From the NCBI RefSeq assembly GCF_000165485.1, contig NC_014623.1, positions 9,132,893 through 9,196,892 of the forward strand: 64,000 bases of DNA, in the 5' to 3' direction. The stretch comes from Stigmatella aurantiaca DW4/3-1. Lineage in GTDB: Bacteria; Myxococcota; Myxococcia; Myxococcales; Myxococcaceae. Positions 14,098 through 60,636 of this stretch are shown here, piece by piece (the first letter of the stretch is position 1; every line of letters begins with the position of its first letter). The position numbers and the translations under genes were made by a program. A model generated the notes under the pieces. The model had not been told where the DNA came from. It did no database searches and worked only from the letters and a program-made list of their open reading frames with translations.

Positions 14098-14888
14098 ATT
14101 AAGGGCCCGGAAGAGGATCAGGCAGCAGCCCAGAACAAGGAGGCCGAAGTGGACATCATCGCGCCGTTCATCGCGCACGCGCAGACGCCGCTGCCGGTGA
14201 AGCCACGCGTTGGTCCGCTCCACCACCCACCGGTGCTGTCCCAGCCGTTGCTTCGACTCGATGCCGGGCCGTGCGATGCGTGGAGTGATGCCGCGCCGAC
14301 GCAGGCCGCGACGGTTCTTGCGCGACGCGTACGCCTTGTCGGCATGCAGCTTGTCGGGCCGGTGACGGGGAGGACCGCGCGGCTGCCTCACCTTGGGCAC
14401 GGCCTCCAGCAGAGGGAACAGCTCGCGCGTGTCATGGACGTTGGCTCCCGTCAGACTCTCGGCCAGCGGAAGCCCTCTTCTGTCGACAAGAAGATGATGT
14501 TTGCTGCCCGCCTTCGCTCGGTCCGTCGGGTTCTTGCCCGTGAGGGCCCCCCTTTGGAGGCTCGCACCGTCGAGGAGTCGATCGAGGCACGGCTGAAGTC
14601 CACTTGGCCGCGCTGGCCCAGCTCGTTGAGCAGCAGTCGCTGGAGCTGCTCGAACACTCCGGCACGTGTCCATTGCTCCAGGCGTCGCCAAGCCGTCATC
14701 CCCGACAGGCCGAACTGCTTGGTCGGCAGCATCTCCCAGGGAATGCCGGTCCTGAGCACGAAGACGATGGCCTCCAAGGCGGCTCGCTCATCAACCCGGG
14801 GGCGGCCGGGCTTCTTCTTCTTCTTGGGAGCTGGAAGCAGCGGAACGACTCGCTCCCACAGCGCATCCGGTACGAGATCGCGAACCAT
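14083..14888 (-). CDS. IS5-family transposase, OrfA/OrfB joined by -1 frameshift
   Basis: DDE transposase made from two frames. OrfA (from ATG 14888, or an upstream TTG at 14936) has the helix-turn-helix part and the first catalytic aspartate in SRASIDSSTVRA. OrfB carries the second aspartate in KLHADKAYASRKNRRG and the glutamate in WVVERTNAWLHRQRR, ending at 14083. The frames overlap, and OrfB lies -1 relative to OrfA. On the minus strand AAAGGGGGG (14547-14555) sits exactly where similarity passes from one frame to the other, a credible slippery site. Both frames are undamaged and the terminal repeats intact, so the element could be active. Family behaviour (IS427 group uses such frameshifting) is established knowledge; its use here is inferred. 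Confidence 0.9.
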
Positions 14889-58279: not shown

Positions 58280-59392
58280 ATGCGCCCCTCGCCCGTCCCT
58301 CAACTCCTCTGGAAGGCGCTTCTCACCGCGGTGCTGCTGTGCCTGGTGCTTCCCGCGCCCGTCGGGGCGCAAGCACCGGCCGAGACCCAGGCCAAGTCCA
58401 AAACCAAGTCCAAAGCCAAGGCCAAGCCCAAGTCCTCCACTTCGACCCAAGCCAAGGCCAAAACCAAGGCCAAGTCCAAGTCCAAAGCCAAGGCGGACGA
58501 GCAGGAGAAGCTCCAAGCGCAAGAGAAGCTTCAGGCGGAGCAGAAGGCCCAGGCGGAGCAGAAGGCCCAAGAGCAAGCGAAAGCCCGGGAGCAGGAGAAG
58601 GCCCTGGCCCAGGAGAAAGCGCGCGAGCAGGAGAAGGCCCGGGAGCAGGAGAAAGCCAAGGCGCTGGAGCGGGCGCGCGAGCAGGCCAAGGCAGAAGAGG
58701 AGGCCAGGGCGCGGGTCCAGGCCAGGGCCCAGGAGCAAGCCAAGGCCAAGGCACGCCCTCCCGAGAAGCCCCAGTCTCCGTTGCGAATCGGCCTCGGGCT
58801 GGACTTCTACACCGAGAGCTCACGCTTGTCGGGCGAGCAGATCATCAATGGCGCCCGCCGGGACGAGTCTTTTGACTACAGCAGTGCCAACCTCCTCTCC
58901 GCCACCCTCACCGTGAGCTTCCCAGCGCCCATCGCCAGCCAGCGAACGCGCATCGGGGTAGGTCTGCGCGCGCTCGGGAACTATGGCACCGGAGGAGACC
59001 GCCAGTTCGGCTTCGGCGTGCTCAATCAGATGTTCCTGAGCGGCGAGTATGGCCTTCCCGTCGCCAAGCAGGTGGAGGCCCTGTTCGGGTTGCGCGGGGG
59101 TTTGTCGCTGCTCATTCCCGGCAAGGAGCTGAGCGCGGAGATCCAACGGCTCCGGGACGACGACGTGGACGTGTGGAACGTGCCGCGTCTGGGCTGGCTG
59201 GTGGGCCTCTCCGTGGGAGGGCGCTGGCACTTCAGCACCCACTTCGCCGCGCGCGCGGACCTGTTTGGACAGCTCGAGAAGCTCTACCTTTTCCGTACGA
59301 GCCAGGAGGTCAACGGCGTCAACGTCGACAAGAACTGGAGCACCTTTGGCGTTCGCCTGGGGTTGACGCTCGGCATCGAGTTCGCTCTCTGA
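58280..59392 (+). CDS. Outer-membrane beta-barrel protein with Lys-rich and coiled-coil N-terminal region
   Basis: A 370-residue exported protein. A signal peptide (LTAVLLCLVLPAPVGAQA) is followed by a repetitive K/A/S stretch (KSKTKSKAKAKPKSS, about 38-72), a long Q/E/A/K coiled coil (EKAREQEKAREQEKAKALER, about 75-155), and from about 165 a beta-rich domain with alternating hydrophobic strands (LRIGLGLDFYTESS ... GVRLGLTLGIEFAL) ending in a Leu as in some barrels. I infer an outer-membrane barrel whose basic arm binds peptidoglycan, polysaccharide or DNA in the periplasm. No family name is offered. Confidence 0.75.
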   Translation: MRPSPVPQLLWKALLTAVLLCLVLPAPVGAQAPAETQAKSKTKSKAKAKPKSSTSTQAKAKTKAKSKSKAKADEQEKLQAQEKLQAEQKAQAEQKAQEQAKAREQEKALAQEKAREQEKAREQEKAKALERAREQAKAEEEARARVQARAQEQAKAKARPPEKPQSPLRIGLGLDFYTESSRLSGEQIINGARRDESFDYSSANLLSATLTVSFPAPIASQRTRIGVGLRALGNYGTGGDRQFGFGVLNQMFLSGEYGLPVAKQVEALFGLRGGLSLLIPGKELSAEIQRLRDDDVDVWNVPRLGWLVGLSVGGRWHFSTHFAARADLFGQLEKLYLFRTSQEVNGVNVDKNWSTFGVRLGLTLGIEFAL

Positions 59393-59407
59393 GAGCCCCC
59401 TCGTGAA

Positions 59408-59808
59408 GTGTCCGCGCAATTTTTGGACATAGTCAGGAGCGAAGTCGTCCACGCGTTCGCAATGGCGGCGTCCAGAATCGCGAGTGATGCGGGCAGCAGG
59501 AACAGGGGGCCTTGAGTTTGAGGACGCAGGTCGCGGGTTATTCGTCTCGGCGCGGGGCTCCCCGTCTTTGACGGGTCCTCCCGCACACCGGCGGCCCCGC
59601 TCTCCCTCGGCACGCAACTCCCAGGCACTGAACCGGTTCGAGTTCACTCCTTTCGCGGCACTCTGGGCAAACCGGTATGGCTGTCCGACAGGTTTGTTCG
59701 AGGTGGTGCCGTCGGTGAGCTCCGGACAAACTTGTAGGATTGTCCGACAGGTGCAGACGACTTGTCGTCGGCAGGGGTCACGACTATGTCGAAAAACTTG
59801 TAAGACAC
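59408..59808. mobile_element. 0.4-kb element with imperfect 27-bp terminal inverted repeats
   Basis: The right end begins GACTATGTCGAAAAAC (59782-59808), and the reverse complement of 59408-59434 begins GACTATGTCCAAAAAT; 20 of 27 bases agree. Inside, TGTCCGACAGGT occurs at 59682-59693 and 59741-59752, and AAACTTGTA at 59728-59736 and 59794-59802. No transposase is encoded. This looks like a non-autonomous (MITE-like) element or the joined ends of a deleted one. Confidence 0.5.
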
Positions 59809-60036
59809 TCCACTAATACGGCTCCCCCTTGGACAAGGGAGCTTAACCCGCCCCCGGGATGGCAGGGAGCCCAAGCGGTCCTCAAGGAGTGCCCCGGGCG
59901 CTTCGACGGGCGCTTCGAAATGGGCGAGCGGGCTCTGGGAGAGGGAGACCACCGCGCCGTGAGCCTCAAGGACCCGCGCACTGGAATGGCTGTGCTGAGG
60001 AATCACTCTTACGGCCCGCAGCGCCCCACCGCCGCA

Positions 60037-60150
60037 GCAGCCCAGAACAAGAAGGCCGAAGTGGACATCGTCGCGCTGCTCATCGCGCACGCGCAAGCGC
60101 CTCTGCCAATGGAGCCACGCGTTGGTCCGCGCTCCCACCCCGCGGCGCCG
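60037..60150 (-). pseudogene. IS5-family transposase, C-terminal fragment
   Basis: Minus-strand RTNAWLHWQRRLRVRDEQRD and VHFGLLVLGCC match the end of the transposase of the intact element at 14.1-14.9 kb, at both protein and DNA level, with scattered changes. The catalytic glutamate region is just cut off and no terminal repeat is seen. Confidence 0.8.
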
Positions 60151-60177
60151 TCCTACGCTCCCGGACATAGATGTTGA

Positions 60178-60636
60178 TCACCTGCGAGAGGTGATCTGAT
60201 GCCGGAAGGCTCGGCGCACAGCCGCCATCAGCGCAGAGAGCGTCGCGTAGCTGCGCTCGGGCATTTCGTGGCCCTTGATGACGCCGAAGACGGGCTCTAC
60301 CTCGTTGAGCTGCGGTGAGTAGGCCGGTAAGTAGAACAGCGACAAGCCGACCCGGGAGAGCGCAGGCAACGCCCGCTGCACGGCCTTACTGGTGTGGATG
60401 CCCGCGTTGTCGAGGACGACAACGCAGGGGTGCTTGCCGGAGGGGAGCGTTTTCACAATGTCATCGGACCTCAGCGTGCGCGGGTACAGCCGCCAGCGCA
60501 GCGTGGGCCGGGTACCCAGGGGACGTAGGCGACCACGGCATTGACACGGCCCTTGGGCGCCTCGTAGGCGACTGGATGGCGCTGACCGCGTGGACTCCCG
60601 CGGTGCGCTCCAGCCACCACTGGCCAGCAGCACCAT
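60178..60636 (-). pseudogene. IS630-family transposase remnant
   Basis: The open part reads RTLRSDDIVKTLPSGKHPCV, then VVLDNAGIHTSKAVQRALPA and FYLPAYSPQLNEVEPVFGVI, the second aspartate and final glutamate regions of IS630 transposases. Upstream, in another frame, EAPKGRVNAVVAYVPW continues the family, so a frameshift lies near 60520. The N-terminal domain is missing. It is not the same copy type as the remnant at 16.0-16.4 kb, whose surviving part differs. Confidence 0.8.

Follow-up and report, generated by a model that had tools for sequence, protein, structure and literature searches.

The 411-bp element at positions 59403–59813 (plus strand) of the window, i.e., of the 64,000-nucleotide stretch of DNA analysed here (9132893–9196892 on the single 10.26-Mb contig of genome G000), is with high probability a non-autonomous MITE of the IS630 type (Tc1/mariner-like), whose interior would consist of a captured hairpin repeat and two palindromes. 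Elements of this kind are already known; what is unusual, and partly documented here, is the origin of the interior. Judged by its sequence, the interior contains no recognisable transposase remnant; the hairpin repeat and the two palindromes that make it up have counterparts outside MITEs. Most likely a structured repeat that existed beforehand would have been captured into the MITE.

Borders, Ends and Copies of the Element

The element had been placed at 59408–59808 in an earlier note; it is indeed there, with borders that are corrected by the copies in its own genome and by the coordinates of the terminal inverted repeats (TIR) to 59403–59813. The left TIR (59403–59434, plus strand), which together with 59435–59440 matches the transposase-3′ end of the IS630 elements described below, and the right TIR (59782–59813, minus strand) each comprise 32 nt, of which 24 match. 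Up to 59815, the final 34 bp of the query are 97% identical to one end of the IS630 element of the relative G005. The right end is followed on its 3′ side by TA (59814–59815), and TC is found 5′ of the left end. The inverted ends of 27 bases with 20 matches that had been described for the element were reproduced, and within 1.2 kb no inverted pair of 27 nt with this spacing scored higher. In first-order Markov shuffles (n = 60) a score of 20 was never reached and one of 19 was reached six times (mean 17.25), and the inverted ends taken alone are thus marginally beyond chance. The MITE of the window is nevertheless far above chance because copies of it recur in its own genome.

The two pairs of short internal repeats seen previously were also found, TGTCCGACAGGT at 59682–59693 and 59741–59752 and AAACTTGTA at 59728–59736 and 59794–59802. 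The interior had been described by these short repeats only, a separate family of structured repeats outside MITEs not being visible to that reading. In agreement with the absence of coding content noted before, none of the eight open reading frames of at least 60 amino acids overlapping the MITE has a match in Pfam, the sole library run on them, and neither a sigma-70-like promoter nor a terminator was found within the MITE.

The earlier note had made its reading depend on a second copy in this or in related genomes, and such copies were found. A copy with 92% identity over nearly the full length of the MITE (E = 1.5e-151) lacks the left end, and a right-hand piece with 95% identity borders on a complete IS630 element, the junction being the TA next to the right end of the MITE. 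Furthermore, there is a second subfamily with at least five copies in the same genome, 72–76% identical to the MITE of the window; its members are about 490 bp long (two near-complete and several partial copies) and 92–97% alike among themselves. The numbers of copies in this genome and in those of relatives are lower bounds, since a limited number of candidates was scored per genome. The element of the window is therefore a multicopy MITE with several relatives in its genome.

The IS630 Partner

The search for a full-length parent that had been proposed was successful: elements of 1.2 kb that share the ends of the MITE are present in the same genome, two at 100% (rounded), one at 90%, and one that is interrupted. 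The interrupted copy (L010, G000:C1:6803500-6810500) carries an inserted segment of about 2.6 kb, the open reading frames of which look IS66-like by eye. The partner is encoded by two overlapping frames matching HTH_29 and DDE_3. With the NCBIfam model NF033545 (IS630; cut-off 100 bits) the second frame scores 120 bits in the own genome and 107 bits in G005, and the first frames score 34 and 35 bits, which is below the cut-off.

The sequence TAGTCAGGA is common to the transposase-3′ end of IS630 and the left end of the MITE, and TAGTCG(T/C)G is common to the transposase-5′ end of IS630 and the right end of the MITE. Immediately inside the IS630 ends, the bases on the 5′ side of the transposase gene are not those on its 3′ side, and each end of the MITE carries the version that corresponds to it. 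It should be noted that these exact subterminal polarity bases are not kept in the second subfamily and in some other short elements. TA adjoins 35 of the 42 listed ends of this end family, a tally from which identical flanks were removed and in which the two ends of the window copy (TA right, TC left) are counted. Other short elements with both ends are 116 bp (G005 and G006), 186 bp (G006), and 272 bp (G013) long. Because both ends match IS630 in the right polarity, because TA is found at 35 of 42 ends, and because there are other short elements with these ends, the element is assigned to the IS630-type MITEs. The IS630 transposase, acting in trans, would cut at the ends of the MITE and would insert it at TA; that the MITE of the window has itself been mobile we infer from its sequence.

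The earlier suggestion of a MITE is thus borne out by ends that match IS630, by multiple copies, and by a length of 411 bp without a transposase gene. For its mobilisation a tyrosine recombinase or a DDE element had been considered; the latter is supported by IS630, DDE_3, and NF033545, and for the former no support was found. The element could also be a decayed IS630 remnant with an interior of transposase sequence changed beyond recognition. Short tblastx matches of the interior to the IS, the strongest with E = 2e-6, would fit this, but they are attributed here to G+C-rich composition and to the summing of statistics with the ends. In blastn the matches of the MITE to three IS630 copies are confined to the terminal 48 bp, the overlapping open reading frames are without a Pfam match, and the interior module has copies of its own elsewhere with a covarying structure, which makes a decayed remnant very improbable.

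Site of Insertion

The MITE lies just downstream of an open reading frame (58280–59392, plus strand) without a Pfam match. The conservation of this open reading frame in relatives of the same genus (91% identity in G005, 80% in G004 and G001) reaches as far as the stop codon, after which the similarity to relatives ends. In the fetched flanks past the stop codon there is no match to the MITE in G005, G004, and G001, and the rest of the flank is also unlike the window. A clean empty site was not found for the window copy, the whole downstream region being different in the closest relative (91%), and because this region is not conserved the absence of the MITE beside the open reading frame of the relatives is inseparable from a wider rearrangement.

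On the other side of the MITE the C-terminal part of a transposase of the IS630 family is found (60181–60636, minus strand; 67 bits against an NCBIfam cut-off of 100), a neighbour for which a role as partner is not implied. Close to this remnant there is a repeat of about 120 bp (60034–60153), which occurs at 23 or more other places of the genome with 76–94% identity, including 14122–14241 of the window.

The Hairpin Module

Many matches in the genomes of relatives are to the middle of the MITE only, and their alignment revealed a module. In the window it extends from 59502 to 59621 (plus strand; 104 bits with the covariance model R1, this copy being among the 33 from which R1 was built) with a conserved core at 59526–59607 (plus strand). 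The module has a 5′ arm and a hairpin core, the latter 82–91 nt long; roughly half of the copies also have a 25-nt palindrome about 50 nt further on. In a scan of 55 copies the palindrome was found downstream in 30, within 54 nt in 27, and at 47–54 nt in 21.

A search of the own genome with R1 (E ≤ 0.1) yielded five strong places and a weak one, six in total, each within a copy of this MITE family; one of these MITE copies is without the left end. Among 58 genomes of the family R1 had matches in G000, G002 (36 places), and G020 (11 places) and none in G001, G004, and G005, which belong to the same genus. Separate searches gave 24 matches at 22 places in G003 and 10 matches in G006, a relative of the same genus; the filters in the search of the 58 genomes were stricter. 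Thus four genomes of relatives (G002, G003, G006, G020) carry the module at 10–36 places each. The 55 copies examined are 36 from G002 (35 of 36 model matches plus L057, which was found by blastn only), four from the 22 places in G003, five of 10 from G006, and 10 of 11 from G020. At three loci of G002 (L088, L090, L092) modules occur as inverted pairs (plus, then minus) with starts 229–256 bp apart, which is like the paired arrangements of REP sequences. One of the G020 modules, of which the borders are only approximate, lies in a tkt-rpiB gap, and the corresponding gap of G000, G001, G004, and G005 is without it.

No Rfam covariance model matched 59300–59900 of the window at E ≤ 1, and none reached the gathering score in ten loci of relatives, so that a known RNA family was dropped as a candidate. 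A source in phages, plasmids, or viruses was also rejected: blastn of the MITE gave no match in phage or plasmid records, and an exact search of viral contigs with a 27-base pattern of the module gave none either.

Pairing was examined in an alignment of 58 copies (52 distinct rows counted), namely five MITE copies and 53 of the 55 module copies, L056 and L057 being left out as they were from the R1 alignment (33 of 35 extracted copies). In these 58 copies 98.3% of the cells pair. Cells with a double change number 39 as compared to 10.3 in shuffles (reached in none of 500) and to 0–3 when the partner is slid; one pair changes through C-G, G-C, and T-A. Covariation is weak by two of five measures: four pairs are changed on both sides (2.0 in shuffles, reached in 14 of 500), and there are 12 further pair types (12.0 in shuffles, reached in 371 of 500). 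The covariation term of RNAalifold for the 33 copies is small (−0.31 kcal/mol). Folded as RNA, the whole MITE is better than 100 shuffles (z = −2.5); two isolated cores folded as single-stranded DNA are not better than shuffles (z = −0.4 and −0.8).

The five MITE copies have broken pairs in 12 of 124 cells and the remaining 53 copies in 10 of 1322 (Fisher p = 3e-8, a test that treats the related copies as independent), and four of the 10 broken cells outside MITEs fall in L034 and L026, each of which has one MITE-like end. The difference suggests that the module, the copies of which are related, may be under selection outside MITEs and may be decaying inside the MITE.

With respect to neighbouring genes, as assigned with a crude GC3 gene finder at any distance, 25 of the 55 copies lie between convergent genes, 17 between genes of the same direction, and three between divergent genes; for 10 the arrangement could not be resolved. 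Within same-direction pairs the two orientations of the module are about equally frequent (9 versus 8), which leaves a role as oriented leader or in a 3′-UTR unsupported. No gene family was seen to be tied to the copies: none of the 25 most frequent of 106 Pfam families occurs in more than two of 81 neighbouring open reading frames. This context is better suited to a dispersed repeat tolerated at the ends of genes than to a regulon's leader RNA.

The 25-nt Palindrome

The MITE of the window contains the palindrome twice: copy 1 (AACCGGTATGGCTGTCCGACAGGTT; 59670–59694, plus strand) has 25 nt and an imperfect dyad, and a degenerate copy 2 (59729–59753, plus strand) lies 59 nt downstream as a 79% repeat. 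A degenerate pattern allowing for paired and unpaired forms was found at 33 sites of the own genome and at 8 to 176 sites in each of six relatives and was absent from 32 of 39 genomes; a reversed control was unmatched everywhere. The palindrome is thus a dispersed repeat in seven of the 39 (G000, G002, G003, G006, G009, G013, G020). In a hand count of the 33 sites the two variable positions of the stem are paired in 23 and unpaired in 10, and nine of these 10 sit in copies of this MITE family. The outer stem is kept between lineages through paired base changes. In folding, the palindrome of the window has a z of −1.6 and one of G013 a z of −5.2; a 41-nt piece with a z of −2.6 is left out of account because its cut runs through the palindrome.

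Several other repeats surround the same palindrome. One of about 200 bp has it at its centre and occurs at 13 loci of G000, among them L174, L166, L173, L168, L163, L169, L171, and L178; two of the 13 have, within nine mismatches, both of two MITE-like ends (TGAGCCTGCCCCGG..., TGAGCCTGCCCCGGTTGTGTGG...), which are unrelated to the IS630 ends seen here, and six more have one of them. A third, longer repeat is present at eight loci of G000 (L164, L165, L175, L176, L177, L179, L180, L111), seven of which are near-identical over 300 bp. Another repeat has CACCGAATCGTTTGAA upstream of the palindrome (L014, L015, and L016 in G000; L120 and L127 in G003).

Palindromes and hairpins resemble the targets of single-strand transposases, and a non-DDE system, whether a tyrosine recombinase or something attC-like or REP/RAYT-like, could be argued to move the MITE; a phage integrase is indeed one of the 81 neighbours of module copies. 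Against this stand the ends of the MITE, which match IS630 and are mostly at TA, the 25 most frequent of 106 families among the neighbours of the module, none of which occurs more than twice, and the distribution of the Y1 transposase: PF01797 (Y1_Tnp) is absent at E ≤ 0.001 from G000, G002, G003, G006, G009, and G020, and three weak matches are found in G013 (24–26 bits, cut-off 23). A mobiliser other than a DDE transposase has therefore very little probability.

With the REP palindromes (GTAG and CGTC super-families; RAYT) the 25-nt palindrome shares that it is short and dispersed and that its stem is kept by paired changes. It differs in that six of its seven carriers are without a Y1 transposase and in that none of 72 distinct palindromes in the fetched loci is directly adjoined by GTAG or CGTC (within 12 nt such a tag is found at seven of the 72, reversed tags at four). 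On these two grounds a RAYT origin of the palindromes was rejected. A missing Y1 transposase alone does not exclude the CGTC group, because CGTC REPs, according to the part of the source drawn on, are also said to lack a dedicated transposase (PMC3733652). The main text of that paper on tagged REPs, to the extent consulted, is without Myxococcus, Stigmatella, or Cystobacter (PMC3733652).

Comparison With Other Small Repeats

A short dispersed repeat of a myxobacterium, RMX of Myxococcus xanthus, was reportedly described by Fujitani, Komano and Inouye in 1991. The repeat dealt with here is likewise short, dispersed, and myxobacterial, a likeness of general description that settles identity neither way. 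The RMX paper is not among the matches listed in the open-licence literature, and nothing on the present repeat is among them, by which its absence from print is not established; the match for myxobacteria together with miniature inverted-repeat concerns, in the portion available, Acidobacteria only.

Closest in kind is RUP of Streptococcus pneumoniae, an established MITE of IS630-Spn1 that is described, in the section drawn on, as a small intergenic non-coding repeat with TA-containing targets (PMC2229807). The MITE of the window is also small and non-coding with IS630-family-like ends. RUP has 107 bp, is repeated 108 times, and is there reported, as far as that section goes, without another functional motif (PMC2229807), whereas for the MITE of the window the length is 411 bp and the copies are few, and it contains a module with an existence of its own. 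The Correia/NEMIS elements of Neisseria are, in the same account, small, can form stem-loops as RNA, and can carry an added IHF site (PMC2229807). Small size, formation of stem-loops, and an added motif are shared with them, as compared by description. It is asked in that part of the source whether the motifs of such elements arose by capture of chromosomal sequences (PMC2229807); unlike for Correia/NEMIS, the form of the cargo outside MITEs is seen here in relatives.

Origin of the Interior

The direction of capture, from the free repeat into the MITE, is inferred because base pairing is poorer inside the MITE and because there are copies without IS630 ends in another genus. Conversely, the hairpin repeats outside MITEs could descend from old MITEs from which the IS630 ends have gone, in which case there was no capture. 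In favour of this, a single degenerate IS630-like end is present in copies of G002 and G003 (the scan picked up L034 and L059, and L026 was noted by eye); at least two of these, L034 and L026, had been taken for free copies. In L112 the palindrome is followed by an IS630-like end. But in the scan of the 55 copies (17-nt ends, up to four mismatches) the left end was found in two only and the right end in none, and pairing is better kept in the free copies than in those of the MITE. Moreover, the ten G020 copies examined are all without IS630 ends; their mean column identity is 98.5% in the core, 61.5% in the linker, 89% in the palindrome region, and, at background level, 47% in the 5′ flank. 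A loss of ends from old MITEs is therefore regarded as unlikely, and capture is preferred.

The free module, a long covarying hairpin often followed by the palindrome about 50 nt on, might itself be a new class of structured dispersed element of the Myxococcaceae that is kept or spread by a factor other than IS630 or a RAYT, and parts of it would have been captured by unrelated MITE-like elements and carried into genomes without the free form, such as that of the window. This is put forward as a tentative proposal.

The hairpin raises a puzzle in G020, where 91 nt are 98.5% identical in ten dispersed copies while the adjacent linker is only 61.5% identical. The pairing of the cargo is kept outside the MITE and appears to decay inside it; a single bacterial family shows the MITE together with its IS630 partner and with the cargo as it occurs outside MITEs.
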